Notes under the pieces: generated by a model
What the model saw: the letters and a program-made list of their open reading frames with translations, nothing else
What the model was told of the DNA's origin: nothing
Databases searched by the model: none
Translations under genes and position numbers: made by a program
Shown: piece after piece, positions 3,765 to 36,655 of the stretch
How the letters are laid out: each line of letters starts with the position of its first letter
How positions within the stretch are numbered: position 1 is the stretch's first letter
Assembly: GCA_028687715.1 (NCBI GenBank)
Contig: JAQTZP010000006.1
Location: forward strand, 1 to 39,220
Direction of reading: 5' to 3'
DNA length: 39,220 bases
From: Minisyncoccota bacterium
GTDB taxonomy: Bacteria > Patescibacteriota > Minisyncoccia > Minisyncoccales > GWA2-38-27

Positions 3765-6731
3765 ATGGCTAAGGATAATCCCCCAAAATTAAATACTATA
3801 GGACGTATTAAAGACAGAGAAATAGTTGAAGAGATGAAGGAGTCGTATCTTGACTATGCGATGTCTGTTATTGTGGCGCGCGCTCTCCCTGATGTAAGAG
3901 ATGGTTTAAAGCCTGTTCATCGTAGGATTTTGTATGCGATGCTGGAAGAAGGACTTCATCACAATGCTAAATTCAGAAAATCAGCTACAGTAGTGGGATC
4001 GGTTTTAGGCCGTTATCATCCGCATGGCGATGTAGCGGTTTATGATTCTTTAGTAAGAATGGCTCAGGATTTTTCATTAAGATACCCTTTGATTCAAGGT
4101 CAAGGGAATTTTGGTTGTTTTTCAAAAGATACAAAAATCAGATTAACCGATGGAAGAAGTTTATCATTTAGTGAATTAATTAAAGAACAAAAAAAAGGAA
4201 AAAGGCACTGGACATTTTCTTTCAATAGAAAAAGCGGTAAAGTTGAAATCGCAGAAATTAAGAAGCCGCGGCTAACAAAAAAGAATGAGAGAATAATAGA
4301 ACTTACATTAGATAGTGGAGAAAAAGTTAAATGCACCCCAAATCATAGATTTATGCTCAGAGACGGAAGTTATAGGGAGGCAACAGATTTGAAGTCAGAA
4401 GATTCTTTGATGCCTTTTTACAGCAAGTTCTATAACGGAGAACAGGATAAAAATCTAAAAGGTTATGAAATGGTTTATAATTCAGTAGGTTCAGAAAAAT
4501 ATAATCATAAAATAATCTCTATAAAAACCCTTTCTGCAAAAGAAGATGTTTATGATTTAACAATAGATAATTTACATAATTTTCTCTTAGATGCAGGGGT
4601 ATTTGTCCATAATTCCATAGATGGAGATCCTCCTGCTGCAATGCGTTACAGCGAGGCAAAACTTTCTAAAATAGGAGAGAAGATGCTGGAAGATATTTCA
4701 AAAGACACAGTTGACTTTATAGACAACTATGATGGAACCAGGAAAGAACCGGTAGTTCTGCCTTCTCCTTTGCCCCAGCTTCTTTTAAACGGCTCTGTCG
4801 GGATTGCTGTTGGCATGGCTACCAATATCCCTCCGCATAATATCTCTGAGGTCTCTGATGCTTTGATTCAGTTAATAGATTATCCAAAGACTGAAACTGA
4901 AGACCTCTTTAAACTTATAAAGGGTCCTGATTTCCCTACCGGAGGAATTATCTACGGGAAAAATGATATAATCTCTGCTTATTCCCAGGGAAAGGGCCCC
5001 ATTGTAGTTAGAGGCAGGGCGGAAATAACAGAAACTAAAACAGGCCTAAGCCAGATTATTATTTCAGAGATTCCCTTTCAGGTTTCTAAATCAACCTTAG
5101 TAGAGCAGTTCGCCAAGCTGGTTCAGGAAAAGAAAGTAGTGGGGATAAAAGATATCAGAGATGAATCAGACAGAGAAGGAATGAGAATTGTAATTGATCT
5201 TCAAAAAGGCTCTTTCCCTCAGAAGATTTTAAACAGGCTTTATAAGTTTACTGACCTGCAGAAGACCTTTCACCTGAATATGCTTGCCTTGGTTGAAGGA
5301 ATCCAGCCAAGGGTTTTATCTCTTTCAGACGCCTTAAACTTCTTTATAGACCATAGAAAAGAAGTGGTTTATAGGAGAACTAAATACGATTTAGAAAGAG
5401 CAAAGGAAAGAGTTCACATCTTGGAAGGGCTTCATAAGTGTTTAAATAATATTGATGCTGTTATAAAGACCATTAAGTCTTCAAAGAGCAGAGAAGACGC
5501 CAAGATTAACTTGATGAAGAAATTCAGGCTTACTGAAATTCAGGCAAACGCAATACTTGAAACAAAGCTGTCTGCTTTGGCAAAATTAGAGCGTCAGAAA
5601 ATAGAAGAAGAGCTTAAAGCGCTTCAGTTAAAAATTAAAGAATTAACTTCTGTTTTGAATAATCCTAAGAAAATAAAAGAAGTGGTTAAAAAAGAGCTTA
5701 TAGAATTAAAACAGGAGTTTGGAGATGAAAGGAAAACAAAGGTTTTATCTCAGCAGGTTGGAGAAATAGCAGAGGAGGATTTAATACCTCATGAGGAAAC
5801 AATTATAACTTTAACCCAGGGAGGATATATCAAAAGAATCAATCCCTCTACCTACAAAATACAGAAAAGAGGGGGAAAAGGCATTTTAGGCATGAAGACA
5901 CTGCAGGATGATATCGTAGAGCATTTTCTGCCTGCCGAAACTCACGATTCTTTGTATTTCTTTACTGATTCAGGCAAGGTTTTCAAAACAATGGTTTATG
6001 AAATTCCAGAGGGAACAAGAGTTGCCAGAGGTAGGGGTCTTTTGAATTTCTTAGAGGTTTCCTCTGAAGAAAAAGTCCTTTCTCTTTTAACCATTGAGAA
6101 AAAGGACATAGAAGAAAAGATAAAAGATTTAATAATGGTTACTAAAAATGGTATAATTAAAAGAACAGCGCTTGAGGAGTTTAAAAACATTCGCAAATCA
6201 GGTTTGGTGGCTATCGGACTCAAGAAAGACGACCTGTTGAAAAAAGTAGCTAAAAGCACAGGAGAAGAAGAGGTAATAATTGTCACTTCCGGGGGTCAGT
6301 CAATCAGGTTTAAGGAAAAAGAAATAAGGGAAATGGGCAGGCCTGCTTCAGGCATCAGAGGGATTTATTTAAAGAAATCAGACGAAGTTGTAGGAATGGA
6401 TGTTATAAAGAATAAAAAAGAATTAAAGCAGTATCTTTTGGTGGTCACAGAAAACGGATATGGAAAAAGAACAGATGTTAAAGAATACAGGCTTCAGAAA
6501 AGAGGCGGAACAGGCATTAAAACAGCCAATATTACTCCAAAGACAGGCAGGTTGGTGTTTTCCAAGGTTTTAATAGGAGATGAAGAAGAAGACTTAATCG
6601 TAATCTCCCAAAAAGGGCAGGTGATAAGGACCAAGATATCTTCGATTGCTAAGCTTAACCGTCCAACTCAGGGAGTAAGAATAATGAGGCTTGATGATAA
6701 AGATAAAGTTGCCTCAGCAATGTGTATATAA
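3765..6731 (+). CDS. gyrA: DNA gyrase subunit A with an in-frame mini-intein
   Basis: GyrA breaks and rejoins DNA within the A2B2 gyrase. The 988-residue precursor carries extein residues 1-117, an intein at 118-283 and extein 284-988, giving an 822-residue mature protein. The catalytic tyrosine lies in AAMRY at precursor residue 295 (129 after splicing). The C-terminal beta-pinwheel contains a GyrA box (QKRGGKG), needed for negative supercoiling, which marks it as GyrA rather than ParC. The gene starts 2 bp after the upstream small gene; a methyltransferase begins 5 bp after its stop. Confidence 0.95.
4116..4613 (+). other. GyrA mini-intein (166 residues), no homing endonuclease
   Basis: The intein begins with Cys118 after GNFG and ends with VHN (Asn283) before Ser284 of SIDGD, in a conserved part of gyrase just ahead of the active-site tyrosine. 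Block A is CFSKDTKI, block B is CTPNHRFM (TxxH), block F is [13 protein letters not shown] and block G is VFVHN. All residues for standard protein splicing are present: Cys1, block B His, penultimate His, terminal Asn and Ser+1. The 60 or so residues between B and F are too short for an endonuclease and read like a deletion scar. Confidence 0.93.
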
Positions 6732-9535: not shown

Positions 9536-11590
9536 TTATTTAGGCCATTCTTCTATCATTATACACTCTTTTTTGTCTTTTAGGGGAATCTTTTGATAAA
9601 TCTCTTCTGTTATAAAAGGCATGAAGGGATGCAAAAGAATTAAAGAGTTTAATAAAACATATAATAGGATGCTTTTAGTTTTTTCATTATTCTGATTCTT
9701 TGATTCTTCTATATATATATCGCAGAAATCGTGCCAGAAAAAATCATATAAGGTATGAGCAGCTCTTCCAAATTGAAAGCTGTCTAAGTCTTTATTCACC
9801 GACTTTATTGTTTTATTCAGCTTATTAAGTATTTCTTTGTCAGTTTGGGTTAGTTTCTGTTCTTTAAGATTTAGTTTTGGTAATTCTAAATTTGATGATT
9901 GAAAAAGGACAAACCTGGAGGCATTCCATATCTTGTTGGCAAATTTTTTACCCATTAGAATATTATCTGTTGAAAACCTTATATCCTGATTTCCCATAAT
10001 CTGATAGGCGATGCCGAATCTTACAGCATCAGCCCCGTATTCATCTATCAGCTTTAAAGGGTCTATTCCTGTGCCTAGGGATTTTGACATTCTTTTTCCA
10101 TCTTTTGTTAAAATAGTGGCATGGATATAGATATCTTTAAAAGGCTTATTATTCATAAATTCCATGCCCGAGAAAATCATTCTTACGACCCATAAATTTA
10201 TAATATCCCTGGCAGTTGATAAAACTGCGGTTGGATAAAACTCTTTTAAATCTTTTGTTTTCTTGGGCCAGCCAAAGGCCGCAAAAGGCCATAAGGCAGA
10301 AGAAAACCAGGTATCAAGGACGTCATTTTCTCCTTTAATCGGTATTTTATGACCCCACCAGATCTGACGGGAGATGCACCAATCTTTAATGTTTTTAAGC
10401 CAGTCAAGATAAGGCTTTTCAAAGCTTTTTGGGTAAAATATTGTCTTCTTCTCTTTTACCGGATTCCTTGCTTTCTGAGCCAGCTTTTCCATTTTTAAAA
10501 ACCATTGGTCAGAAGGTATAAATTCAATGCCTGCGCCGCAGCGGTAGCATTTTGGAATCTGATGAGTATAATCTTCAATCTTATCTATCAGATTCTGGTC
10601 CTTCAAATCTTCAACTATCATTTGCCTTGCCTCAAGCGCTTTGAGATTCTGGTATTTTAAGGGAGCTTTATCCGTGATCCTTCCTTTTTCGTCAATGATT
10701 TCAATTAAGCTTAATTTATGCTTTAAGCCTATCTGATAATCAGCCAAATCATGGGCTGGGGTTACCTTTACTGCTCCTGTTCCAAAGTTCTGGTCAATCA
10801 TTTCATCAGCGATAATCGGTATCTCCCTGTTTGCTATCGGAAGAATTGCTTTTTCTCCGACTAAATGTTCATATCTTTTATCTTTGGGATTAACAGCTAC
10901 AGCAGCGTCTCCAAGCATTGTTTCCGGCCTGGTGGTGGCAACAATGATAAATCTTTCAGAATCTTTTTTTAAAGGATATTTAATGTAGTATAGATTTCCT
11001 TTTTCTTCTTTGTATTCCAACTCAAGGTCAGACAAACTTGTTGAGCATCTCGGGCACCAGTTAATGACTCTTTTCCCTTTATAAATCCAGCCTTTTTTAT
11101 AATAATGCATAAATGCTTCTTTTACTGCCAGGCTGTAATCTTTATCCATTGTGAATCTTGTTCTTGACCAGTCGCAGGAAGAGCCTATTTTCTTAAATTG
11201 GCCTAAAATTATATTCCCATACTGCTGTTTCCATTTCCAAACCTCTTCTACGAATTTTTCACGGCCTAAATCAAACCTTGTTTTACCCTCTTTTTTAAGT
11301 TTTTTCTCAACTACGTTCTGAGTGGCGATTCCGGCATGGTCGGTTCCCGGAATCCAGACAGTTTTAAAACCCTTCATTCTTTTCTGTCTTATTAAAATAT
11401 CCTGAATTACGGCATTTAAAGCATGACCCATATGAAGTTCTCCTGTTACATTGGGAGGAGGTATCACAATTGAATAGGGTTTTTTGTGCCTTTTAGGGAG
11501 CTTGTCCGGGTTAAAAAAGCCCGATTTTTCCCATAATCGGTAGATTTTATCTTCAACTTGTTTGGGGTTGTAAGATTTAGCTAGTTCCAT
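9536..11590 (-). CDS. valS: Valyl-tRNA synthetase, compact form
   Basis: Charges tRNA-Val. The class I signatures are intact: PPPNVTGELHMGHALN with HMGH at residues 53-56 and KRMSKS ending at residue 504. The CP1 editing domain is present (ATTRPETMLGD), as is LDTWFSSALWPF. At 684 residues it is much shorter than the usual 850-950: the stretch before DVLDTWFS lacks the usual cysteine-bearing insertion, and the protein stops at IEEWPK straight after the anticodon-binding helices, without the C-terminal coiled coil that grips tRNA. It is first in a three-gene operon. Confidence 0.95.
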   Translation of the reverse strand: MELAKSYNPKQVEDKIYRLWEKSGFFNPDKLPKRHKKPYSIVIPPPNVTGELHMGHALNAVIQDILIRQKRMKGFKTVWIPGTDHAGIATQNVVEKKLKKEGKTRFDLGREKFVEEVWKWKQQYGNIILGQFKKIGSSCDWSRTRFTMDKDYSLAVKEAFMHYYKKGWIYKGKRVINWCPRCSTSLSDLELEYKEEKGNLYYIKYPLKKDSERFIIVATTRPETMLGDAAVAVNPKDKRYEHLVGEKAILPIANREIPIIADEMIDQNFGTGAVKVTPAHDLADYQIGLKHKLSLIEIIDEKGRITDKAPLKYQNLKALEARQMIVEDLKDQNLIDKIEDYTHQIPKCYRCGAGIEFIPSDQWFLKMEKLAQKARNPVKEKKTIFYPKSFEKPYLDWLKNIKDWCISRQIWWGHKIPIKGENDVLDTWFSSALWPFAAFGWPKKTKDLKEFYPTAVLSTARDIINLWVVRMIFSGMEFMNNKPFKDIYIHATILTKDGKRMSKSLGTGIDPLKLIDEYGADAVRFGIAYQIMGNQDIRFSTDNILMGKKFANKIWNASRFVLFQSSNLELPKLNLKEQKLTQTDKEILNKLNKTIKSVNKDLDSFQFGRAAHTLYDFFWHDFCDIYIEESKNQNNEKTKSILLYVLLNSLILLHPFMPFITEEIYQKIPLKDKKECIMIEEWPK

Positions 11591-11598
11591 ATTAGTAA

Positions 11599-11627
11599 AT
11601 ATTAACAGAATAGGGATTTTTCAGCAA
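11599..11627 (-). promoter_or_regulatory. Promoter of the valS-prsW-hsp20 operon
   Basis: On the minus strand TTGCTG (11627-11622), a 17-bp spacer and TAATAT (11604-11599), close to the valS ATG at 11590. Confidence 0.5.
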
Positions 11628-11631
11628 ACTA

Positions 11632-11659
11632 TTGACGCGCTATATTCATTTGTTATCAT
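11632..11659 (+). promoter_or_regulatory. Promoter of the gene at 11692
   Basis: TTGACG (11632-11637), a 16-bp spacer and TATCAT (11654-11659). Confidence 0.5.
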
Positions 11660-11691
11660 AATTTATAAGTTCTTTGACAGGAGAAGCAGCT

Positions 11692-12204
11692 ATGGCTGAG
11701 ACATGCATCTGCGGAGAAAGAATTTCTCCACTGGGGTTTATAAGCTTAAGACATAAGGGGTTTTATTTTTATATCCCTAACGATTCATCAAGATGTCCGT
11801 TATGCATAGAGAGGCAGACTATTTCTGATTTTGAAAAATATGCCGAAGAATTAATAAAACTTGAAGGCGAGAGCGTAAAAGTTGACTGGAGGTCTTTGTT
11901 GGCAAAACCTCCCTTTGAAAAAGACAAGATAGGAAATATTCTGACGTTTATCGGTATTTTATCCTTTGGTTCGGAGAATAACTGGGAGATTGGGATTGAT
12001 GGTCCTGGCGGAGCAAACATTAGGATTAAAGGCGCCTATACCTATTTTACTCGTTTGGTTGACGCAGTAGATGTTGCCCGATTAATTCTTTCAGCCGCAG
12101 GATATAATTGGTATGTCAGGCAAATAGGAATGGTATTTACCAAAGAGGATGTTTTAAGAAATACTGAAAAGCTTCAAAAAGCAATTAAAGAAACGGTTGA
12201 TTAA
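11692..12204 (+). CDS. Unknown protein with N-terminal zinc-knuckle-like cysteines
   Basis: 170 residues. Two cysteine pairs (CICG near residue 5 and CPLC near residue 36) separated by about 30 residues could bind one zinc ion. The remainder is mixed alpha/beta with a WEIGIDGPGGANIRI stretch and a final helical part. The start at 11692 is set by AGGAG 7 nt upstream; an in-frame TTG at 11674 is less likely. The function is unknown. It is single-gene, with its own promoter and terminator, in the same style as the 934 gene. Confidence 0.75.
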   Translation: MAETCICGERISPLGFISLRHKGFYFYIPNDSSRCPLCIERQTISDFEKYAEELIKLEGESVKVDWRSLLAKPPFEKDKIGNILTFIGILSFGSENNWEIGIDGPGGANIRIKGAYTYFTRLVDAVDVARLILSAAGYNWYVRQIGMVFTKEDVLRNTEKLQKAIKETVD

Positions 12205-12216
12205 CCGTTCTTTTTT
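12192..12216 (+). terminator. Terminator overlapping the stop codon of the 11692 gene
   Basis: AACGGTT (12192-12198), loop GATT and AACCGTT (12203-12209), then C and six T. The stop codon lies within the hairpin. Confidence 0.85.
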
Positions 12217-12249
12217 ATTTTAAGTCTAGGTTAAAAATCAACAGGGGGG

Positions 12250-12277
12250 TTGACAAACAATATTAATATCCTATTAT
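12250..12277 (+). promoter_or_regulatory. Strong promoter of the small gene at 12340
   Basis: TTGACA (12250-12255), a 16-bp spacer and TATTAT (12272-12277); a perfect TATAAT overlaps at 12277-12282. Confidence 0.65.
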
Positions 12278-12284
12278 ATAATTG

Positions 12285-12340
12285 TTATGGCGAGGTGCCA
12301 TAATGTTCAGTTCCTTCACTCTATAGGAGGTAATCCTATA
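12285..12340 (+). promoter_or_regulatory. Structured leader with sequestered ribosome-binding site
   Basis: The first hairpin is TTATGGC (12285-12291), loop GAGGT, GCCATAA (12297-12303). The second is TATAGGA (12322-12328), loop GGTAA, TCCTATA (12334-12340). The near-ideal Shine-Dalgarno AGGAGGT (12325-12331) is split between stem and loop of the second hairpin, whose 3' arm includes the A of the start codon. This could tune translation by temperature, a ligand or an RNA partner. Confidence 0.55.
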
Positions 12341-12615
12341 TGAAAAAACACACTGATTTAAACTACGATCCTTCGATGCTCGCTCTGATGCGGGACACTC
12401 AAAGGACGTTGGTTGAGCAACCCGATTTTCGGGGGATTGGCATGCATGGTCCTGAGACCGGTTCTCATGGTCTTCATAGCCAAGTCAGCATCGGAATCGG
12501 CGACACGACGGTTAACTTCCGTCAGCTCGGACCTCTGCCACCGCTTTCTTTTCGTGGGATTGAGCCCACGACTCTTCCCAAGGGACCTGATCCACTTGCT
12601 CCTTGGAGGTGGTAG
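12340..12615 (+). CDS. Small unknown protein, 91 residues, Gly/Pro/His-rich
   Basis: It begins MKKHTDLNYDPSM and ends PDPLAPWRW. It is rich in Gly, Pro and His, has no membrane segment or cysteine, and matches no family I know. Support for coding: a near-consensus promoter, an AGGAGGT ribosome-binding site 8 nt before the ATG, and a stop shortly before a terminator. Against: its base composition is clearly GC-richer than its neighbours, long frames are open on both strands here, and the transcript is full of hairpins, so a structured RNA is the main alternative. It may be a recent arrival. Confidence 0.55.
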   Translation: MKKHTDLNYDPSMLALMRDTQRTLVEQPDFRGIGMHGPETGSHGLHSQVSIGIGDTTVNFRQLGPLPPLSFRGIEPTTLPKGPDPLAPWRW

Positions 12616-12619
12616 TTGT

Positions 12620-12699
12620 CGTCGCATATGCGACGTAAATTCAAAGGCGAAACAATAGTTTCGCTTACCTCAATGGGTGAAAACCCAAAGAGGTTTTTT
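12620..12699 (+). terminator. Three-hairpin 3' end with GAAA-loop terminator
   Basis: A 16-bp perfect palindrome (12620-12635) is followed by GCGAAAC-AATA-GTTTCGC (12647-12664). A terminator comes last: ACCTC (12667-12671) pairs with GAGGT (12690-12694), inner TGGGT/ACCCA caps a GAAA tetraloop (12679-12682), then six T. The last hairpin is a clear intrinsic terminator; the first two are extra structure. Confidence 0.7.
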
Positions 12700-12752
12700 A
12701 TTTTAAATAAAAATAATTAGACTTTAAGAGTCAAATCCCTCAGATTTAATTA

Positions 12753-13877
12753 TTATATCCTTAAATTAGCTTTTGCCTTTAATTTTCTCCAAGGTGTTTT
12801 TTTACTCCTTTGATAGAATCCGGATATACCGGCCATTACAGCATTGTCTGTTGATAGATTCTTCTTTGGGATTAGAAGCTGGAATTCACCTCGCACTTTT
12901 TCTTTAAGCTGCTTTCTTAATCTTTCATTTGCTGAAACTCCCCCTCCCAATATTATTGTTTTAGCCTTATAGTCGTATGCCGCTTTGATAGTCTTTTTGA
13001 TTAAAACATCAACAATGGCTTCTTGAATTTCGTAGCACATTTGTTTTAAAATCTTTTTTCTTCTTGATGTTTTTATTTCCTGCCAGGAGTATAAAACGGC
13101 TGTCTTTAATCCTGAAAAGCTGAAATCATAATCTTTGCTGTAAATCATTGGTCTTGGCAGTTTAATTTCAGATGTCGTATTCCCTTCTGCATTTTTAGAA
13201 ATTACAGGACCTCCCGGATAACCAAGGCCTAAAATCTTAGCCGCCTTGTCAAAGCATTCTCCGGCTGCATCGTCTTTTGTCTCCCCGATTATTTTGTATT
13301 TTCCAATGCCTTTCATAAGTATTAGCTGAGTATGTCCTCCTGAGACAACCAAGCAGACTGCAGGGAATAGACATTTGTTATTTAAAAGATTAACCAAGAT
13401 ATGGGATTCAATATGATTTACTCCGACAACCGGGATATTGAAAAGATAAGAGAGGGCTTTGGCAAAGTTTATTCCAACCCATAAGCAAGGCTCAAGCCCG
13501 GGACCGATTGTAACAGAGATAAGGTCGATATCAGGTTTTTCGTATTTTTCAAAAAAGGGAATCAGCTTCTTTAATAATTCGGGCTCTCTTTTTAATATAG
13601 AGTTGATTGCTTTTAATTTAGAACCTTTAACCTTTGATGCTTTTTTAATTTTTAGGAGGCTGCTTTCTTTTAAGGCCTTTTTTAGGACATAAGTCAGGTT
13701 GCGCTGATGCTCTCTTTTAGCCAGGGTTGGATAAACTCCCCCCCATTCTTTATGGATTTCTATTTGAGAGGAGACTAGATCTGATAGGATATTAAAATCA
13801 GCTCCTTTTTTACTTCGGGCTTCAATTACAGCGATTGATGTATCATCGCACGATGTTTCAATGGCAAGGATTTTCAT
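12753..13877 (-). CDS. tsaD: tRNA N6-adenosine threonylcarbamoyltransferase
   Basis: TsaD transfers threonylcarbamoyl to A37 of tRNAs reading ANN codons, with TsaB, TsaC and TsaE. The ASKHA fold starts MKILAIETSCDDTSIAV; the metal-binding HIESH motif lies near residue 155, followed by VSGGHTQL, GETKDDAAGECFDKAAK and a late ILGGGVSANERLR. At 374 residues it is slightly long because of a lysine-rich insert at about 75-115 (KIKKASKVKGSKLKAINS). It is a single gene convergent with the hairpin-rich small gene. No partner gene is in the window. Confidence 0.95.
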   Translation of the reverse strand: MKILAIETSCDDTSIAVIEARSKKGADFNILSDLVSSQIEIHKEWGGVYPTLAKREHQRNLTYVLKKALKESSLLKIKKASKVKGSKLKAINSILKREPELLKKLIPFFEKYEKPDIDLISVTIGPGLEPCLWVGINFAKALSYLFNIPVVGVNHIESHILVNLLNNKCLFPAVCLVVSGGHTQLILMKGIGKYKIIGETKDDAAGECFDKAAKILGLGYPGGPVISKNAEGNTTSEIKLPRPMIYSKDYDFSFSGLKTAVLYSWQEIKTSRRKKILKQMCYEIQEAIVDVLIKKTIKAAYDYKAKTIILGGGVSANERLRKQLKEKVRGEFQLLIPKKNLSTDNAVMAGISGFYQRSKKTPWRKLKAKANLRI

Positions 13878-18214: not shown

Positions 18215-18289
18215 TGGTGTCCCTACGAGGAGTTGAACCTCGATATCAGCCTCCGCAGGGCTGCGCTCTGTCCATTGAGCTATAGGGAC
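18215..18289 (-). tRNA. tRNA-Arg(GCG)
   Basis: On the minus strand the acceptor arms are GTCCCTA and TAGGGAC, the D arm GCTC/GAGC, the anticodon stem CAGCC/GGCTG around loop CTGCGGA (anticodon GCG) and the T arm CGAGG-TTCAACT-CCTCG. Discriminator A and CCA are encoded (18218-18215). Most bacteria read CGN with an ACG tRNA modified to inosine by TadA; a GCG anticodon reads CGC and CGU without that step. Confidence 0.93.
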
Positions 18290-18297
18290 TTTACTTT

Positions 18298-18326
18298 ACA
18301 ATATCATAGAATTAGCTGTTTTTCAA
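18298..18326 (-). promoter_or_regulatory. Promoter of tRNA-Arg
   Basis: TTGAAA (18326-18321), a 17-bp spacer and TATTGT (18303-18298) on the minus strand. Confidence 0.55.
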
Positions 18327-18327
18327 A

Positions 18328-18356
18328 TTGACTAAGTAGAGCTAAATTGTTAGAAT
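18328..18356 (+). promoter_or_regulatory. Promoter of tRNA-Ser(GCU)
   Basis: TTGACT (18328-18333), a 17-bp spacer and TAGAAT (18351-18356), 11 bp before the tRNA. It is back to back with the tRNA-Arg promoter. Confidence 0.65.
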
Positions 18357-18367
18357 TAAGCGTAATT

Positions 18368-18458
18368 GGAGGAGTGCGGCGAATGGCAAGCCAGCAGTTT
18401 GCTAAACTGCACCTGTTTAAAAAGCGGGTTGTGGGTTCGAGTCCCACCTCCTCCGCCA
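18368..18458 (+). tRNA. tRNA-Ser(GCU), integration site of an element
   Basis: Acceptor arms GGAGGAG and CTCCTCC, anticodon stem CAG/CTG extended around loop TTGCTAA (anticodon GCU), a long class II variable arm, T arm GTGGG-TTCGAGT-CCCAC, then GCCA encoded. The 3' end CCGCCA (18453-18458) is the boundary of the element; the serine recombinase gene reads through it from the other strand and overlaps the tRNA by 42 bp. Confidence 0.95.
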
Positions 18459-20165
18459 TCGTGGATTTAGAGTGACAGAAACCGCTCTTTTCCGTTCATT
18501 TAGGGCTATTTTGGCAGGTTCGAGCGCAAGTTTTGCTTCGGGAACTGCCTTTAATCCCTTCCTGATGGTTTCAAATGGTTCTGCTGGTTCAATCCGCAGT
18601 TTTTTATTCATTAATCTTAGGTTCGAACCAAGCGTGCTGAAAATCTCTCTTTGCCTCTGTAGGTCTCCTTTTTCAACAGCTTCGTTGAACCAGAAGCGGG
18701 CATAGCGGCTGAAATTAAAGGTTCTCTCTGAAAGTTCCAGCCATTGGTCAACTCTGCGGTCAGTGTCTTTTAGTTGTTCTTGATAGCTCTCTTTTTCCTT
18801 TAAGAGAGCTTGTTTCTTTCTTTCAAGGAATTCTTCTTCGTCTGGCGTTAAGTTCTTGCTTAAGAGCTTTTTTTCCATTACTTCGTCTAACTGTCTGATT
18901 GTGTCGGTATAGGCTTTTTGCTGGGACTGAAGAATTTGATTTCTGGTAAGTACCTCCAATTTATTGGCTTTTCGCAGGTGATTAAGCGCCCAGTCCAAGT
19001 ATTTCTGGTTTATCTGAATTCCAGACAAATACTCGTCTATCTGTTTTTCTAATTGCTTTACTTCTATATATTCTCTTTGGCTGCAGTTTTGGTTTTTCCT
19101 TCTGGTGCAGTGGTAATAAACATACTTTAAGATTGTTGGTTTTTTCATTTTTTCTATAGCAGTATTGCATTTCGGGCAGATTCTTTTATTCTCGTAAGAG
19201 AATTTACGTTTGCATTCAGAACAGATAATCTGATTCTTTTCTTCAGCTGTAACTGCGCTTCCGCACTCGTCGCAGGCAATTAGTCCCGTGAAAGCAAAGG
19301 TTCTCTCGTGAGGTTTTTGTTTTCCTTTACGTCCCAATAATAGTTGAACTCGGTCAAATTCTTCCTGGTTTATCATTGGTTCGTGAGAACCTTTGTGCCA
19401 GACTCCGCTTTTTGCAGGATACTCAAACCAGCCATAATAAAAAGGATTGGTGAAAATCTTGTAAATCCCACTTCTTGATAAAGGATTCCCGCCACTCCTT
19501 TTTCTTTTGGCCGTTCTATAGCCCCACTCATTATTGGCGATGTCCAAGATTTGAGGCGGAGTATGATTTCCTGCCAGCATCAAATCCCACATCTTTCTGA
19601 TCAGGGGAAAACGTTCTGAATCGTTGGAAATATCATTTTCACCTCTGTTTTTAACCTTGCTGTTTAAATATCCCTGTGGAGCTACTCCTGGCAGCCAGCC
19701 CATTTTTACTTTTTTCTCTAAACCTCGCTTTACGTCCTTGCTTAGTTTGGCTGAGGAGTACTGGGACTGGGACATGGCTATCTGGAGCATCATTATTCCT
19801 TCAGGCGAATTATCAAAATGATAAGAACCGAACTTTAAGTCTTTAATCTCGCCAGTCCTGATCATATAGGTTATGGTGGCTGCGTCAATCTCATTTCTTG
19901 CCAGACGGTCAGGATGCCAGGCAATAATTCCTTGAGCCTCTCCTGCTTTAATTCGTTTTATCATACTGGCAAATACTGGGCGGTTATATGGCAGAAAAGC
20001 AGATTTTTCTTCAGTTAAGATTTTAACAACTTTTAAGTCAGCAAACATTTCATTTGCCTTGTCTATCTGGCTGGGAATAGAAAGCGCCTGCCTTTCTTCT
20101 GGCTCAGAGGATTTTCGGCAGTAAACAAAGTATTTGATTTTCTCCTGGTTTGGTTGTTGGAGCAT
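18417..20165 (-). CDS. Large serine recombinase (integrase) of the tRNA-Ser(GCU) element
   Basis: 582 residues. The N-terminal resolvase domain carries the catalytic serine in YCRKSS (Ser19) and WHPDRLARNEIDAATI; then a recombinase domain (about 165-270), a zinc ribbon and a long coiled coil (about 385-485). The zinc region is enlarged: CDECG is followed by CSEC, CPKC and YYHCTRRKNQNC, two more CxxC pairs than in the recombinase at 33519. The C terminus (NPRWRRRWDSNPQ) is encoded by tRNA sequence, so it depends on where the element sits. Upstream is an unusual hairpin rather than a Shine-Dalgarno site. Confidence 0.92.
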   Translation of the reverse strand: MLQQPNQEKIKYFVYCRKSSEPEERQALSIPSQIDKANEMFADLKVVKILTEEKSAFLPYNRPVFASMIKRIKAGEAQGIIAWHPDRLARNEIDAATITYMIRTGEIKDLKFGSYHFDNSPEGIMMLQIAMSQSQYSSAKLSKDVKRGLEKKVKMGWLPGVAPQGYLNSKVKNRGENDISNDSERFPLIRKMWDLMLAGNHTPPQILDIANNEWGYRTAKRKRSGGNPLSRSGIYKIFTNPFYYGWFEYPAKSGVWHKGSHEPMINQEEFDRVQLLLGRKGKQKPHERTFAFTGLIACDECGSAVTAEEKNQIICSECKRKFSYENKRICPKCNTAIEKMKKPTILKYVYYHCTRRKNQNCSQREYIEVKQLEKQIDEYLSGIQINQKYLDWALNHLRKANKLEVLTRNQILQSQQKAYTDTIRQLDEVMEKKLLSKNLTPDEEEFLERKKQALLKEKESYQEQLKDTDRRVDQWLELSERTFNFSRYARFWFNEAVEKGDLQRQREIFSTLGSNLRLMNKKLRIEPAEPFETIRKGLKAVPEAKLALEPAKIALNERKRAVSVTLNPRWRRRWDSNPQPAF

Positions 20166-20170
20166 GCTAT

Positions 20171-20227
20171 TGAAAATGGCTCAGACGACGCTCCGCCTGA
20201 GCCATTTTCAGGGCTGGAGCGTCAGCC
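20171..20227. promoter_or_regulatory. Nested hairpins directly upstream of the integrase start
   Basis: TGAAAATGGCTCAG (20171-20184) pairs perfectly with CTGAGCCATTTTCA (20197-20210) around a 12-nt loop. GACGCTCC from that loop (20187-20194) also pairs with GGAGCGTC at 20216-20223, and GGCT/AGCC (20212-20227) makes a third option. The arrangement gives a pseudoknot or two exclusive folds, 6 bp before the recombinase ATG. It may limit integrase expression or mark a recombination site: its GACGCTCCGCC recurs at 33585-33595. Confidence 0.6.
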
Positions 20228-20302
20228 AGTTTGTTTGCTTTTAAACTCTTCTCTCAACACGAACAATGTGCTTATCCAGAAAACAAGTCAAGTGGATAAC
20301 TA

Positions 20303-20692
20303 TTATTTTGTTTTTTTAAATTTCTTTCTCATTTTTTCTTCCATCATTTGGTGATGGCTCGAGCTCATATATCTTAAGTTATGGCATTTTCTACAGAGAA
20401 AGATATTCTGGGTCGGCGGTTTATATAATGTTCCCATTCTCCCTTTGCATTTAGGGCAGATAAACCAGAATCTTTCTTTGCCAAAATAACAGGGGGATGA
20501 GGTTATCTCAATGTTTTGCCCGATTTCCTGCAATTTTAATTTAAGACGCAGTTCCTTAACTTCGGTTCGTATATCCCTTACCAGATTATTGATATTGATT
20601 TTTTGGCATTGCTCAATAAAAATTCTCATAAAAGTTCCGAAATCATCTATTGTTAATAATTTTCTCTTTTCTACTGTTTGATTTTTTAACAT
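20303..20692 (-). CDS. Zinc-ribbon protein of the integrated element
   Basis: 129 residues. A helical N-terminal half (TIDDFGTFMRIFIEQC, then basic) is followed by a zinc ribbon with ICPKCKGRMGTLY at about 78-90 and FLCRKCHNLRYMSS at about 97-110, and a basic tail. Two CxxC knuckles 16-18 residues apart suit nucleic-acid or protein binding. Such proteins occur in phage and integrative elements, but the role is unknown. Its start overlaps the upstream gene by 50 bp in another frame, so a later start (ATG at 20629) is possible. Confidence 0.68.
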   Translation of the reverse strand: MLKNQTVEKRKLLTIDDFGTFMRIFIEQCQKININNLVRDIRTEVKELRLKLKLQEIGQNIEITSSPCYFGKERFWFICPKCKGRMGTLYKPPTQNIFLCRKCHNLRYMSSSHHQMMEEKMRKKFKKTK

Positions 20693-21344
20693 TGATTACC
20701 TGCTGGTTTTTGGCAAGGTAGGCATTTTCGGTTTTTACATGAATATTCAGCTTCGGCTGCCTTATTTCTTTCAAGAGAATGATTGAGTTGGTAAACTGCC
20801 TATAGGCTAAATCCACGGCTTTTGAGGCTTCTTTGGCTGCCTTCATTGTATTGGGATCGTAAGAGACAAACACTTTGTCTTCTTCGTCTTCATCTTTTTT
20901 CATTAAATGAAAGTTTAAAATTCTACTGTTTCTCATAAAGTTGTAGTAGGCAGTGGCAATAATATCGATTAGGCTTAATTCAGTTGGTGTTTTGGGGCAA
21001 TATTCATCTACCAGAGAGTTACGCATCTTTTTCAGAATATCTGTATTTTCTTTGTCAACAGGCCAGAAAGAAAGCTCTCCCCAGGGATAACACATTAAAG
21101 ATACTGCTTCCTGGCTGAGCTTGCTTAATTTCTTATTTGCCCCCTCCTCTTCCTTTTTGTTTTTCGCCTCTCTTAGCGATTTAACCGCTTCTTTGAATTC
21201 TCGATAAATTCCGTCTGCACCATAAGGCTCAAAAAAGACCTTCGTTACATTGCTTACTGTCTTTTTGAAAAAAGCCACGCTTTCATCCAAGTCTTGATTT
21301 TTGAGTATCTCTCTGTTTTTGGATGGTATGATTTCTTTGCTCAT
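20643..21344 (-). CDS. Unknown element protein, 233 residues
   Basis: A mostly helical, soluble protein. Notable parts are LSLIDIIATAYYNFMRNSRIL in the middle and the end, where KLNIHVKTENAYLAKNQQVINV precedes a basic tail. It resembles accessory proteins of phages and integrative elements of unknown role; a DNA-packaging small-subunit-like role is possible but not shown. The frame extends to a GTG at 21368, but I start at the ATG at 21344 because the extra stretch consists of the GTGAAGTGT repeats. Confidence 0.62.
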   Translation of the reverse strand: MSKEIIPSKNREILKNQDLDESVAFFKKTVSNVTKVFFEPYGADGIYREFKEAVKSLREAKNKKEEEGANKKLSKLSQEAVSLMCYPWGELSFWPVDKENTDILKKMRNSLVDEYCPKTPTELSLIDIIATAYYNFMRNSRILNFHLMKKDEDEEDKVFVSYDPNTMKAAKEASKAVDLAYRQFTNSIILLKEIRQPKLNIHVKTENAYLAKNQQVINVKKSNSRKEKIINNR

Positions 21345-21355
21345 ATTTTGTAAAA

Positions 21356-21566
21356 ACACTTCACACACTTCACTATCTTAATTCCTGTATATTTTTATCT
21401 TAAAATCAGGCTTCTAGGAGTGGAGAGTTTGGAGACCGAAGTCTCCACAGTGAAGTGTTAACTCCTCACTGTGGAGTGTTAGTAGCGTTGGAGTTTTCAC
21501 TGATTTTTTCAGGGTTTTTATCGGTATTTTCTGATGATTCTGCTGAAAGTGAAGACAGTGAAGTGT
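21356..21566. repeat. Five-copy GTGAAGTGT cluster (iteron-like)
   Basis: Copies on the minus strand at 21356-21364 and 21365-21373 (directly abutting) and on the plus strand at 21450-21458, 21471-21479 (one mismatch) and 21558-21566. They span the 121-bp gap after the ATPase gene and its 3' end. Within lie GGAGAC-CGAA-GTCTCC (21431-21446) and CTCCACAGTGA (21443-21453) against TCACTGTGGAG (21466-21476), which share four bases and so exclude each other. The pattern fits iterons at an origin or binding sites of a regulator. Confidence 0.55.
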
Positions 21567-22941
21567 TATTTTCGTCTTTACAGTAAAGGTTATTTATTTT
21601 CTCAACCTTTTCTTTTTCAAAAAGATAAGCCACGCCCTTATTGGTTGTTTTCTTTTCACTGGAAAGGTTAAACTTCTTGATAATGTATCCAATTCTGATG
21701 TCTTTCTGATGCAGAGTTAAACACTTATCTTCCCAGGCATCCTCATTTATTCTTTCTCTGATTTCTTGAGGTCTTAACAGGACAGCCTCTTTTTCATCGA
21801 AGGAATCGTAAACGCTTTTTATAGCTTCCTTTTCTAATTCACTGGGTTCATATTCGGTATAGCCGTAAAGTTGCCTGAATCTTTTTCTTAATTGGTTTAG
21901 CTCCTTTTCTTCGGTATTAAGTTTCAGAATTGTTTCCATAGGCAGCCATAACTCTAAATCTCTGCCGATAATCTCAGAGTTTTGTCTGTAGTGAATTTTG
22001 AAAACTTCGTAACTGCTTTTCAGTAAAGAAAACTGGGTCAAAAAGGTTTTATACAAATTACCTCTTATCTCTTTCCAGTCATCGCTTTCTTCAGAAGGTT
22101 CAGGGAAATTCTTTTTGCTCTTAATAAGGGGGATAGTCAGACATCGGTCAGCCAAATCTTCAGAGAGTTCTCCTACTGAGGCAAAGGCTTTTGGGCTGTA
22201 TGTTTCCTGCTCAATGGTTTTCCAGCCGCCTCTTTTTTCAGAAAACCTGATTCTTCTTTTGCCGCCCTCTTTTTTGTAAGAGTCAGTCAGGATTTCCATC
22301 AGCTCTTCGCTTCCTTTGCGCTTTAAGACATCAGCCTGGTCTATTAGATAAGTTCCTCTCAAAGAATCAACGGTGTCGCTTAAAGCTGGCAGGCTCGGTT
22401 TGGCTTTAACAGCATTAAAACATAATTGCTTTAAGAAATTGAGACACTGGCTTTTGCCAGATTGCTTTGGCGCTTTAATGTGCAAGAATGGATAGGCAGA
22501 GAAAATCGGGAAAAGATAAGTTCCGATTATCCAGGAGGTTATTAGAGAATAATCTTCTTCTTTTTCCAGCTCGATGTATTTCTTAGACAGCCCTTTAATC
22601 TCTTCAAATATCTTTTTAGGGTAGAGGGCATTTAGCTTGGCTGAATTGTAGCCTTCAATGAAAGTGAACAGATTCTCCAAATCCCATCTTTCTTCTATTC
22701 TCGCCAATAATCTGCCTTTTATTTCAATGAAGTATCGTTTGTTTTCGAATTCAAAATGATTATCTTGATGAATGGCAATGTTTTCCCCCATAGTGGCAAT
22801 GAAGATCTCTTTTTCTTTCAAATCTTTGGCAATAAACCTGAATCCTAAAATGGCAACATTGTTTTTTACATCCAAGGAGGGATGCAGGAACTCGCCCTTA
22901 AAACACTCTATTTTATTTTTATCTAATCTAATTTCATTCAT
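21466..22941 (-). CDS. Primase/helicase-type P-loop ATPase of the element
   Basis: 491 residues. A small N-terminal domain is followed by an ATPase core with Walker A KAPKQSGKSQ near 183-192 and Walker B-like TYLIDQADVLK near 218; later ASVGELSEDLADRCLTIPL looks like a sensor region. This is the layout of D5/DUF927-like helicases of phages and plasmids. A C-terminal DNA-binding part (EAVLLRPQEIRERINED) precedes an acidic, Ser/Asn-rich tail. It probably drives element replication, consistent with the GTGAAGTGT repeats at its 3' end. It follows the 60-residue gene by 4 bp. Confidence 0.72.
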   Translation of the reverse strand: MNEIRLDKNKIECFKGEFLHPSLDVKNNVAILGFRFIAKDLKEKEIFIATMGENIAIHQDNHFEFENKRYFIEIKGRLLARIEERWDLENLFTFIEGYNSAKLNALYPKKIFEEIKGLSKKYIELEKEEDYSLITSWIIGTYLFPIFSAYPFLHIKAPKQSGKSQCLNFLKQLCFNAVKAKPSLPALSDTVDSLRGTYLIDQADVLKRKGSEELMEILTDSYKKEGGKRRIRFSEKRGGWKTIEQETYSPKAFASVGELSEDLADRCLTIPLIKSKKNFPEPSEESDDWKEIRGNLYKTFLTQFSLLKSSYEVFKIHYRQNSEIIGRDLELWLPMETILKLNTEEKELNQLRKRFRQLYGYTEYEPSELEKEAIKSVYDSFDEKEAVLLRPQEIRERINEDAWEDKCLTLHQKDIRIGYIIKKFNLSSEKKTTNKGVAYLFEKEKVEKINNLYCKDENNTSLSSLSAESSENTDKNPEKISENSNATNTPQ

Positions 22942-22945
22942 AGAT

Positions 22946-23128
22946 TTAAGTTGTTTTAATTTTCCTGAATTTATCGGCTTTCTCTTTTGGAATAGGTCGG
23001 TAAATGATTTCTGTGGCAGTTAAGAGTCGCTGAGCCATTGCCAGCAATTGCTCATCGTTAATTTCCTTACCTGGATGCTCTTCCTGCCAAATCTTTCTTA
23101 ATTCTTCCAATTCTTCCTTAGTAATCAT
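22946..23128 (-). CDS. Small element protein, 60 residues
   Basis: A helical, charged protein starting MITKEELEELRKIWQEEH and ending in a basic tail. I do not recognise it. It overlaps the upstream gene by 11 bp and ends 4 bp before the ATPase start, so the three are translationally linked. It could be an accessory factor of the ATPase, by position only. Confidence 0.62.
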   Translation of the reverse strand: MITKEELEELRKIWQEEHPGKEINDEQLLAMAQRLLTATEIIYRPIPKEKADKFRKIKTT

Positions 23129-23402
23129 ATTCTGCTTCGGAGCGGATGCGGCTTTTTATTTCCCGCACCGTTGCCCAAAAAGAAATAGGCTCGACCTTAA
23201 TTTGCCGTTTCCAAAAATCTTCCAAAATTTTATCCATACTTTCAGTTTTCTTAAAGACGGCAATAACTTTATCTGGATTTCTGCAATCCCTTTCCAAAGC
23301 CTCGATAGGAATTCCCAGACAACTCAAAACACAGATCAGAATAAATTCTGATGTTTTGAATAGATTATTTGAATTGTTTAAATCTAATCTTTCTTTTTTC
23401 AT
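23118..23402 (-). CDS. DUF5659-like small element protein
   Basis: 94 residues. The pattern FKTSEFILICVLSCLG at 15-30, a middle NPDKVIAVFKKT strand, ILEDFWKRQIKVEP and a final VREIKSRI match what I remember of DUF5659, a small domain in phage and mobile-element replication modules; this is from memory, not a search. It is the first gene of the block with the 60-residue protein and the ATPase. Confidence 0.62.
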   Translation of the reverse strand: MKKERLDLNNSNNLFKTSEFILICVLSCLGIPIEALERDCRNPDKVIAVFKKTESMDKILEDFWKRQIKVEPISFWATVREIKSRIRSEAEYDY

Positions 23403-23512
23403 ATGAATTTGATTTTTCCTTCTTATTGCTATGACGAAAAGCTTTTCTGATTTTCTATGGAAAAAAGATAAGCTTATTCTGGCTATAAGTTGGCTAAATT
23501 TTGGTTATTAAA

Positions 23513-23541
23513 AAGAATAAAAAAATCGCTTTTTCAGCGAT
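23513..23541 (-). terminator. Terminator of the winged-helix gene
   Basis: ATCGCT (23525-23530) and AGCGAT (23536-23541) form a stem. On the minus strand a T tract (complement of 23518-23525) follows. Confidence 0.75.
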
Positions 23542-23571
23542 AATTAAATTATTAGAACTTGTTTCTAATTT

Positions 23572-24303
23572 TTATTCACAGATAATTCTATATCCCTTCC
23601 ATTTTTTGAGTGTTTGAAAGATGTCTTTGTTGCGTTGGTTTTTTCTGGGCAAAATCCCCAATATTGTCCTGATATTCCTCATCACCGAATCTAATGCCCA
23701 CCTATCTACCTGATGCTCTTTTAGAGGCTCTTTAAATTCCTTGCCTGGATACATTTTTTCCAAGAGAGTTGTGTATTTCGTCATATGCGAGGCGCTACTT
23801 AAAAGGCATAAAAATACTTTATATTCGTTTGTTTCGGGAGCGAAGTTTCCTTTAACTTCACCGAGTATGACATCGCCATTTTCTTTATTAAATTTTAATC
23901 TGCCGCAAACCAGCCACTCACTGATTTTTTCTTCCTTTACTTTCTGCATCGATAAGTATTCTTGAGATACTTCGTTATAGTAATTCTCGTATTTTCTATC
24001 ATCTGTGATTGTAATTTCGCACTTGAAAGAGTCATAAAGGGTGATGGGAAAACGTCTGCCCAGACGGTCTGGCTTGTAATATTTATCAATAGCATATTTT
24101 ATTCCTGCTCTTTTTTGCAAACCTTCAAGGGTGTCCACGAGTTCCAAATATTCATTCTCATTTTTAAGGTTTATGTCAAAACCTCCAAGTTCAAAGTTAA
24201 AGATTTGTTTTGTCGGGTTAAGAGAACGGCGTCTTTGGATAACATCCAGTACCTTTTTAATTTTAATTATTCCTTCTGGAGGAATTTTAATCTCTTTTTG
24301 CAT
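23572..24303 (-). CDS. Winged-helix DNA-binding protein of the element
   Basis: 243 residues. The last 100 or so residues look like an OmpR-type winged helix: a strand hairpin (LKFNKENGDVILGEVKG), ETNEYKVFLCLLSS as the first helix, VDRWALDSVMRNIRTILG as the recognition helix and KKWKGYRIICE as the wing. No receiver domain precedes it; the N-terminal 140 residues are of unknown type. It probably regulates the element or its replication. It has a terminator and stands 170 bp from the replication block, divergent from the radical SAM genes. Confidence 0.68.
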   Translation of the reverse strand: MQKEIKIPPEGIIKIKKVLDVIQRRRSLNPTKQIFNFELGGFDINLKNENEYLELVDTLEGLQKRAGIKYAIDKYYKPDRLGRRFPITLYDSFKCEITITDDRKYENYYNEVSQEYLSMQKVKEEKISEWLVCGRLKFNKENGDVILGEVKGNFAPETNEYKVFLCLLSSASHMTKYTTLLEKMYPGKEFKEPLKEHQVDRWALDSVMRNIRTILGILPRKNQRNKDIFQTLKKWKGYRIICE

Positions 24304-24456: not shown

Positions 24457-25461
24457 ATGAAATTAAGCAAAAAAAAGTACATTGGACTTGGACATGTTCC
24501 TATAGGTATAGGAGCGGTTATTAAGGGATGGGATATGACAGAGGATGATTATCGTAATCCATCGAGACTTCCTGTTGTAAATTTTCGTGCGATGACAGAA
24601 GCGTGCCCGCATAATTGTTTTCATTGTTTTACAGACAAAAATAGAAAAACTTTAACGTTAAATGAAATCAGGAACATAATAGATCAATTAGCCGATCTGA
24701 ATACTTTTGCGATTGATTTTGTAGGAGAAGGAGAGCCAACAATCGATAAAGATTTTTTTGAGATAATTGAATATACTTCTTCAAAAGGGATTCATCCAAG
24801 TATATATACGGATGCCGCAGTGAAAATGCGAGATAAAGATTTTGTAAAAAGGGTTTATGAATCTGGCGCCAGCGTATGCCCAAAATGCGACAGTTTGTTT
24901 GATGAGGAATATCAAAATTGGGTTGTTGGAGATAAAACTGGTAAATATTTTAAACAAAGAAACGAAGCAATAAAATTACTTATGGGATGCGGATTTAACA
25001 AGATTCAAGAAGATGGAACTACAAGATTAGGTTTTGATACGGTTGTTACAAAAAAGAATATCGACGAAATTGAAAAAACATTACGCTATTGTAGAGATAA
25101 TAATTTATGGATAATTTTTACAACCTATCTGCCATCTGGAAGAAGCGGGAAAGAAGATTTTGACAGATCGTTAGTGCTTGATGAGAAAGATAGAAACAAA
25201 CTAAAAAAAATAGTGAAAAAGGTTGATGAAGAATATGAATTTCCCCACCAAATATGGAATGGTTCGACGACAATGCCGTGTATAGAGTTTCTACAAATAT
25301 ACGGAGATGGAAGAGTAAGTCCTTGCGTGGGCAATGAGGACATAATTGGCAATATAAGAGAGACTTCTATTAAGGAATTAGAGAATAAGATATTGGCGAA
25401 ATATCCATTTCTTGATAGAACGAAATTTAATGGTTGCTGCCCTTATAGGTCTAAAATTTAA
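24457..25461 (+). CDS. Radical SAM protein
   Basis: 334 residues. The iron-sulfur motif is CPHNCFHC at about 50-57 (CxxxCxxC), followed by FVGEGEPTIDKDFF, equivalent to the SAM-binding GGEP motif. The C-terminal part has more cysteines (MPCIEFLQIYGDGRVSPCVG and NGCCPYRSK), a shortened SPASM/twitch-like region for an auxiliary cluster. The enzyme cleaves SAM to a 5'-deoxyadenosyl radical; the substrate is unknown. It heads a cassette with a second radical SAM gene 39 bp downstream and a methyltransferase. Confidence 0.82.
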   Translation: MKLSKKKYIGLGHVPIGIGAVIKGWDMTEDDYRNPSRLPVVNFRAMTEACPHNCFHCFTDKNRKTLTLNEIRNIIDQLADLNTFAIDFVGEGEPTIDKDFFEIIEYTSSKGIHPSIYTDAAVKMRDKDFVKRVYESGASVCPKCDSLFDEEYQNWVVGDKTGKYFKQRNEAIKLLMGCGFNKIQEDGTTRLGFDTVVTKKNIDEIEKTLRYCRDNNLWIIFTTYLPSGRSGKEDFDRSLVLDEKDRNKLKKIVKKVDEEYEFPHQIWNGSTTMPCIEFLQIYGDGRVSPCVGNEDIIGNIRETSIKELENKILAKYPFLDRTKFNGCCPYRSKI

Positions 25462-25500
25462 ATAAAATATCTCATATAAAAAAAGAAAATAAGTGGTCAA

Positions 25501-26604
25501 ATGAAACAATTACGAATCAACAAAAAGGATTATCCAGGAGGAGATACTTGTGTGCTTCTGAAGGGTTACAGTTATTCATTACAGGAAATTTATGCAGCCC
25601 GTGACGCGGGTCAAATCCTTTGTTTACGCATGGAAACTAACGATAGCTGTAATTTGAAATGCATATATTGTTATTCTTATTTGCGGCGGAAAAATCAAAA
25701 AGAAATGTCACTCGAAGACGCCCGTGATGTTATTAACCAAGGTGTCAATTTGGGATTACGTTCTATAGTTTACCTCGGGGGCGGAGAACCGCTTTTATAT
25801 AAGCATTTCTGGCCGTTTATTGAATATGTTAACCGCAAAAAGGTGATACCAGTTATTTTTACAAATGGCACGTTAATAAACTTAAACATCGCAAAACGTC
25901 TTTTTGATCTCGGAGTGTCTATAATGCTTAAATTAGATGGAAAAAGAGAAATCCAAGACAAACTTAGTGGGCAAGGTACTTATAAAAAGATTCGCTCTAG
26001 TTTAGATGCTCTTTTGGAAGCTGGTTTCGGAAAATTAAATGGACGTTATACAAGACTTGGTATTGGTCCTTGTGCTACAAAAATTAACATCCTTGAAATA
26101 CCTAAAATTTGGCGATTTGCTCGGAAAAACAACTTTTTTCCCAACGTTGAGTTGGCTACAGAAATTGGTAAAGCTACATCAAATATTGCGTTAGATTGTA
26201 ATCAAGCACGATGGCTTAGGCAGACCCTAAAAGAAATAGACGAAAAAGAGTTTAATATTGAATGGTCTATACCGTACAGTTCGACTCCCGCTCATTCGTG
26301 CGGAATTTTTCTGGCTGGAGCAGCCATAAAGGTAGATCGTGGTGTTGCCCTATGTCCAGAAATGCCATCTGTGGCGAATCTGTCTAATAAAACCCTTGCT
26401 GGAATTATTCAAGAACCACCATTCTCTATGGCGCGAGATCTTGAAAATAATATTGAAGAACCATGCGCCTCTTGTAAATTTTTTCGACTATGTCTTGGTG
26501 GTTGCCGTTCGAAGGCATTGGTTTGTAATAAATCTATTTTTGCATGCGATCCTCATTGTACATTGTTAGAAGAAAATCAACAAAAACCTTCTTTTAAGAA
26601 ATGA
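25501..26604 (+). CDS. Radical SAM/SPASM protein
   Basis: 367 residues. The cluster motif is CNLKCIYCY at about 50-58 and YLGGGEPLLYKHFW binds SAM. The C-terminal SPASM region is rich in cysteine: HSCGIFL, VALCPEMP, CASCKFFRLCLGGCRSKALVC and CDPHC, consistent with auxiliary clusters as in peptide-modifying maturases. Its stop overlaps the next ATG (ATGA at 26601-26604). Codon use differs from the chromosomal genes (more CGT, TCT and CTT), suggesting transfer. No obvious precursor peptide gene is next to it. Confidence 0.83.
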   Translation: MKQLRINKKDYPGGDTCVLLKGYSYSLQEIYAARDAGQILCLRMETNDSCNLKCIYCYSYLRRKNQKEMSLEDARDVINQGVNLGLRSIVYLGGGEPLLYKHFWPFIEYVNRKKVIPVIFTNGTLINLNIAKRLFDLGVSIMLKLDGKREIQDKLSGQGTYKKIRSSLDALLEAGFGKLNGRYTRLGIGPCATKINILEIPKIWRFARKNNFFPNVELATEIGKATSNIALDCNQARWLRQTLKEIDEKEFNIEWSIPYSSTPAHSCGIFLAGAAIKVDRGVALCPEMPSVANLSNKTLAGIIQEPPFSMARDLENNIEEPCASCKFFRLCLGGCRSKALVCNKSIFACDPHCTLLEENQQKPSFKK

Positions 26605-27680
26605 ATAACAATTCATCACAAGATTGGAAACCGACACTTAACCGCCTTCTTGATAGGCTTTCGATAGAGGATAGATATCGCTGTGCGGCAGGAATCCCAG
26701 GACCAATATTGGAAATGCGTTCAGGAACATTGCCAAGAGAATTAGCACACGGTAATAGAGTTCTGGATTTTATGCCACCCATAGCTGAAGTAACTGGTCT
26801 TGATCTCCAAAAGCTTCGTAAGCACGCTAAAGAGATAGCAGATGAATATAGTTTTAAAAAGATATTATATAAATATAATGCTATTACTGTTGATTTCCGC
26901 AGTCGCTTGTTACTACTAAATGATTATATAAAAGCCCTCATCCATCGTTTACGTGGGCTTTCAATTAATAGCAATCCTATTGATATTAACAAGACAAGAG
27001 AAATTCAGCTTTGTATTCGCAATCAAATTATAAATATTGTCTATCCAGCCGATCTTGTATCGCTTGGCTTATTGTGGGAAATATTTGCAGAAGAAATTTA
27101 TTATTTCAAGAATTCTATTAGATGCATTTATGATCTCGGTGCTAATATCGGCTTTTCAACAGTATACTTCCATCTGCTTAATCCGTCTGCGGAAATTGTA
27201 TGTGTAGAGCCAATGGAAGAAAATCTTCAGATACTTGAACGAAATTTAAATAGTAATAATATAAATGCGAAAATAATTCGTGCAGCAGTAGGCGACACCG
27301 AAGGGAAAACAACTTTATTCTTTAGCAATCAATCCCATGCGCTTCCATCAATACATACGAGACAACCACAATCAAAACAAGTTTCGATACTTCCTTTTGA
27401 TAGGATTATAAGCGGCAAGGGATATGGTCTAAAAATTGATATTGAAGGCGCTGAAAGATTTCTAAGCCAATATCCAGCTATTATTGAAAATGCGGCTTGG
27501 ATTGTTGGTGAATTACACTATTCTGGCAATATCGAACGAAATTCGTACATTGATGCCTTTTTTGATATTGTAAAACGTAATTTTATTGTAGAAAAAGGTA
27601 GACCCATTATCTATTTTATTGAAAATGAAGTTTTACTTTGCGAAACCTTTAAAACATTAAAGAAAATCCCCCGAGCGTAA
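26601..27680 (+). CDS. FkbM-family methyltransferase with an extra N-terminal domain
   Basis: 359 residues. The methyltransferase domain starts near 170: IYDLGANIGFSTVYF (motif I), IVCVEPMEENLQIL and LKIDIEGAE are typical of FkbM enzymes, which O-methylate sugars or natural products. The first 160 residues are a helical region I do not recognise, starting DWKPTLNRLLDRLSIEDRY. It is translationally coupled to the radical SAM/SPASM gene by a 4-bp overlap, so the three enzymes probably act on one product. Confidence 0.82.
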   Translation: MNNNSSQDWKPTLNRLLDRLSIEDRYRCAAGIPGPILEMRSGTLPRELAHGNRVLDFMPPIAEVTGLDLQKLRKHAKEIADEYSFKKILYKYNAITVDFRSRLLLLNDYIKALIHRLRGLSINSNPIDINKTREIQLCIRNQIINIVYPADLVSLGLLWEIFAEEIYYFKNSIRCIYDLGANIGFSTVYFHLLNPSAEIVCVEPMEENLQILERNLNSNNINAKIIRAAVGDTEGKTTLFFSNQSHALPSIHTRQPQSKQVSILPFDRIISGKGYGLKIDIEGAERFLSQYPAIIENAAWIVGELHYSGNIERNSYIDAFFDIVKRNFIVEKGRPIIYFIENEVLLCETFKTLKKIPRA

Positions 27681-35039: not shown

Positions 35040-35047
35040 AAAGATTT

Positions 35048-35066
35048 AGAAAAGCCCGCTTCTGGC
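35048..35066 (-). repeat. Inverted repeat D, left copy (19 bp)
   Basis: On the minus strand GCCAGAAGCGGGCTTTTCT; an exact inverted copy lies at 35311-35329. The pair brackets a 244-bp block between recombinase 2 and the Xre operon. This copy is 8 bp upstream of the recombinase 2 ATG. Confidence 0.85.
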
Positions 35067-35070
35067 CTTA

Positions 35071-35160
35071 CTGAATTCAAAACGGCTTGAAATTTCCCCG
35101 AAAAACGGCTGGCGAGCCCGCGTAGCGGGCGAGCCAATGACTTCATTTCCTAACTGGCGG
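35071..35160 (-). repeat. Inverted repeat A, right copy (90 bp)
   Basis: Exact inverse of 33591-33680. It ends with TGGCGG at 35155-35160, and its last four bases are also the first four of repeat B. On the plus strand it encodes the same recombinase tail (EISPKNGWRARV) without a recombinase body. Confidence 0.95.
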
Positions 35161-35263: not shown

Positions 35264-35286
35264 CAAACCGCCAAAGAACCTGAAAA

Positions 35287-35329: not shown

Positions 35330-35337
35330 TATTTCTG

Positions 35338-35405: not shown

Positions 35406-35415
35406 CTTTGAATAT

Positions 35416-35625: not shown

Positions 35626-35629
35626 TTTT

Positions 35630-36652: not shown

Positions 36653-36655
36653 GAA

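Follow-up and report, generated by a model that had tools for sequence, protein, structure and literature searches.

The window, a 39,220-nucleotide stretch of a CPR bacterial genome assembled to 700 kb in 9 contigs, contains a locus that was suspected of encoding a regulatory RNA and is here resolved as an orphan protein gene, termed ORF91. The gene is very probably a monocistronic accessory gene with its own promoter, 5′ stem-loop and terminator, and its horizontal acquisition is probable. The original prediction had described a near-consensus promoter, two leader hairpins of which one covers an ideal Shine-Dalgarno sequence and start, a GC-rich 91-residue frame, and three 3′ hairpins including a GAAA-loop terminator; these elements were found at the locus (Table 1). 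ORF91 lies in a 1162-nt gap between the housekeeping genes valS and tsaD that holds two genes on the opposite strand, both of which have a promoter-like site and a terminator of their own.

Table 1 Features of the ORF91 locus and its flanks (window coordinates).
Feature	Position	Strand	Description
valS	9536-11590	-	Flanks accessory segment
Accessory segment, 1.16 kb	11591-12752		Between valS and tsaD, with two opposite-strand genes
Companion accessory gene, 170 aa	11692-12204	+	ATG at 11692; no Pfam, NCBIfam or PHROGs match
Companion-gene terminator	12192-12215	+	7-pair stem then CTTTTTTATT
Sigma-70-type promoter	12250-12277	+	TTGACA-16-TATTAT; consensus match 11/12
5′-terminal stem-loop	12283-12305	+	9 pairs, 5-nt loop, about -9.6 kcal/mol
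Shine-Dalgarno hairpin	12322-12340	+	TATAGGA-GGTAA-TCCTATA; 7 bp, -7.1 kcal/mol
ORF91, 91-aa orphan protein gene	12340-12615	+	Homologue L005:2992-3198
3′ hairpin 1	12620-12635	+	CGTCGC-ATAT-GCGACG; without counterpart in homologue
3′ hairpin 2	12645-12666	+	Without counterpart in homologue
Intrinsic terminator	12667-12699	+	Two-part stem, GAAA loop, T6; -14.4 kcal/mol
tsaD	12753-13877	-	Flanks accessory segment

A search of 100 relatives at both the protein and the DNA level yielded a single ORF91 match, on G012:C20, a contig evidently identical with PWMZ01000060.1. Its carrier (L005) is a MAG annotated as Candidatus Nealsonbacteria and belongs to the same family as the source genome, which places the source among the candidate phyla radiation (CPR). 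ORF91 and this homologue were the sole instances in a profile search of the order (2/247 genomes), and the homologue occurs in one of the three members of its carrier's own genus. The same profile gave weak matches only (E 0.007-0.6) in samples of the class and the phylum, about 380 genomes each; these showed stops, short fragments or unrelated contexts and were taken as chance. Searches of viral contigs (three queries), plasmids and phages returned no match, and a literature search found no direct report.

The homologue is 68 residues long and aligns with the first 63 residues of ORF91, with 63% identity in the matched segment; the last ~27 residues of ORF91 have no counterpart in it. The 63 aligned codons comprise 15 that are identical, 26 with synonymous changes and 22 with residue changes, such that 26 of the 41 conserved residues are specified by different codons. 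The differences fall 16, 13 and 40 at the first, second and third codon positions, with a dN of 0.23 and a saturated dS. Judged from this comparison of sequences, the pattern is diagnostic: ORF91 is a translated protein under purifying selection, and the peptide half of the earlier reading, which left open a peptide or a structured RNA, is upheld. The other long frames reported on both strands do exist (75 codons in the +1 frame and 85 in the antisense frame) and are uninformative because synonymous shuffles reach them in 224/500 and 91/500 cases, respectively. They are thus expected by chance, and in the homologue they are not open over comparable lengths.

The ORF91 protein matched nothing in Pfam, NCBIfam, PHROGs or the PDB sequences. 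Its conserved part, the first ~63 residues, carries the motif QRTLxEQxDFRGIGxHG...HSQxxIGIGDTTVNFR, and the predicted protein includes the segments TLVEQPDFR and GIGMHGPETGSHGLHSQVSIGIGDTTVNFR. An AlphaFold model based on the two sequences reached a pLDDT of 58 and a pTM of 0.19, a quality that ruled out searching by fold. A signal peptide is absent by eye, and the product would probably be a small cytosolic protein. The His/Gly-rich middle (HG...HG.HSQ) might, as a guess from its residues, bind metal.

In all 12 family genomes that show both genes, valS comes after tsaD at a distance of about -14 to +125 nt; the negative values are largely due to alignments that gave no more than an estimate of the valS start. 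The genome carrying the homologue is one of these 12, and its ORF91 homologue sits elsewhere. The companion gene is present in 1/14 family genomes and 8/247 genomes of the order. Because tsaD and valS are nearly adjacent in the relatives and both accessory genes are patchily distributed, the best reading of this segment is a small accessory insertion that was acquired and splits a gene pair otherwise contiguous across the family. The insertion is absent at the orthologous site in the 12 relatives; no integrase, target-site duplication or convincing end repeats were found in 11591-12752.

The contrast in base composition claimed for the locus is real. ORF91 has a GC content of 0.53 and a GC3 of 0.51, compared with 0.362 ± 0.036 and 0.335 ± 0.055, respectively, for 348 long genes of the same genome. 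High-expression codon bias was ruled out as the cause of this GC richness, since the ribosomal genes S12 and S7 have GC3 values of only 0.34 and 0.33. Four other GC-rich orphan genes of the genome, all on the minus strand, resemble ORF91 in standing alone with a leader hairpin and a terminator: L052:7526-8245, L047:1102-1620, L055:13724-14401 and L055:1584-2357. Their GC content is 0.53-0.56 and their GC3 0.66-0.70. However, they share no protein or flank similarity with ORF91, and their longer leaders have much more structure, ranking 1, 6, 12 and 2 of 174, in the order listed. The L052 and L047 genes are about 98% identical in their 5′ leaders and 96% identical at their 3′ ends, whereas the encoded proteins share only about 45% identity. 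Pfam identified none of the four except for a sub-threshold DUF3759 match to L055:1584-2357. As a set, these four genes are more unusual than the ORF91 locus.

Other observations in the window concern genes away from the insertion. The gyrA-like frame at 3765-6731 contains an internal intein-like segment that ends in FVHN-SIDGD, as read from the translation only. The regions 18218-24303 and 33519-39059 contain large serine-recombinase-like genes by or overlapping tRNA genes (18417-20165 with the tRNA at 18368-18455, and 38562-39059 with the tRNA at 38489-38573) with orphan genes nearby, and are likely integrated elements. At 24457-27680, an FkbM-like methyltransferase gene comes after two radical-SAM-like genes, and the three possibly form a small modification cluster.

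The homologue is preceded by a promoter of the same strength as that of ORF91, TTGACA-17-TATTAT, also matching the consensus at 11/12 positions. In both genes a hairpin of nine pairs and a five-base loop begins 6-8 nt past the -10 hexamer: TGTTATGGC-GAGGT-GCCATAATG in ORF91 and GGTTACAGT-GTGTT-GCTGTAATC in the homologue (L005:2938-2960). All 9/9 pairs are standard in both genes, and three of them have changes on both sides. A hairpin of this kind occurs in 0.038% of non-coding 24-mers; its conservation is between two sequences and is equalled by letter shuffles in 61/500 cases. In a genome sample, a hairpin stem of ≥6 bp followed promoter-like sites in 18/80 cases, which include a few duplicates and form an AT-rich set, compared with 5.6% of non-coding 45-mers. 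Both genes end in an intrinsic terminator, with a different 10-bp stem in the homologue (L005:3217-3240) whose sequence is unrelated to that of ORF91. The comparison suggests that the 5′-terminal hairpin is the sole conserved RNA element besides a terminator.

Stem-loops of the ompA type are known 5′-terminal structures that stabilize mRNA. ORF91 resembles them in the order of a stem-loop at or a few nucleotides from the predicted 5′ end, an unstructured stretch and a Shine-Dalgarno sequence. Because the ORF91 stem-loop is placed at the inferred 5′ end of the transcript, that is, the predicted start site near 12283, it would most likely stabilize the mRNA; this role is assigned by analogy, the ORF91 sequence being unrelated to the ompA-type elements and its host uncultured.

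Alternatively, the same inverted repeat could be an operator for a dimeric repressor and not an RNA hairpin. The repeat lies at the expected start site and its outer GTTA...TAAT bases are the same in both loci, but its inner bases change in a compensatory manner, including G-U pairs tolerated only by RNA, and a regulator gene is not adjacent, which makes an operator unlikely. A similarly low probability attaches to the gating of ORF91 translation by the Shine-Dalgarno hairpin in a thermosensor-like or protein-controlled manner. The AGGAGG at 12325-12330, 9 nt ahead of the ATG at 12340, is contained in this hairpin together with the first base of the start codon, as gating would entail; however, the homologue lacks such a hairpin, and its GGAGG is almost entirely unpaired in the leader fold. 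Moreover, translation initiation normally opens AU-rich 7-bp hairpins as small as this one. The Shine-Dalgarno hairpin of ORF91 is probably incidental or a mild brake.

The original prediction also entertained a structured or dual-function RNA; on such a reading, the frame would be incidental or secondary. The whole transcript does fold better than its shuffles (z -6.1), an excess due mainly to the terminal hairpins. For the coding part by itself, z is -1.62 with dinucleotide shuffles and -1.56 with synonymous-codon shuffles, and a value as low as the latter is reached by 17% of 40 control genes from this genome. The 130-nt stretch ahead of the ORF91 start, of which about 70 nt precede the inferred transcription start, ranks 135 of 174 genes in structure and is not unusual in the genome. 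The coding region of the homologue exceeds its own synonymous shuffles in structure (z -3.57), which speaks for such an RNA, but this structure is not common to ORF91: no conserved coding-region fold was found, the consensus scoring -21.8 against a null mean of -23.4, with codon-column shuffles at least as good in 141/200 cases. The Infernal/Rfam comparison proposed with the prediction gave no match at the locus, whether the cutoff was the gathering score or E≤1. The conserved protein, the third-position bias of its substitutions and the lack of conservation of the alternative frames likewise argue against a dual-function RNA, which is largely refuted and highly improbable. Purifying selection without covarying stems, by which an ordinary gene was to be recognized, is seen for the coding region, for 3′ hairpins 1 and 2 and for the Shine-Dalgarno hairpin, all three hairpins being absent from the homologue; the 5′ hairpin, with its compensatory changes, departs from it. 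Together, the ORF91 hairpins look like ordinary transcript-end structures, not a new regulatory RNA.

As an accessory protein gene of a Nealsonbacteria-like CPR genome, ORF91 would have entered the tsaD-valS interval along with the companion gene, probably by horizontal acquisition, and would be transcribed alone from its near-consensus promoter. The transcript would begin with a stem-loop that, by analogy, most likely shields the 5′ end from decay. Translation would start at the ideal Shine-Dalgarno sequence, where the small hairpin is probably incidental or mildly inhibitory, and the intrinsic terminator would close the transcript.

It is doubtful, somewhat more so than the operator or gating readings, that ORF91 belongs to a broader class of GC-rich, stand-alone cassettes, led by a hairpin and mobile among ultra-small bacterial genomes, that encode symbiosis or competition factors and share a 5′-hairpin expression module. 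ORF91 alone says little on function; in host-dependent bacteria, orphan cassettes of this sort are candidate determinants of lineage-specific traits.
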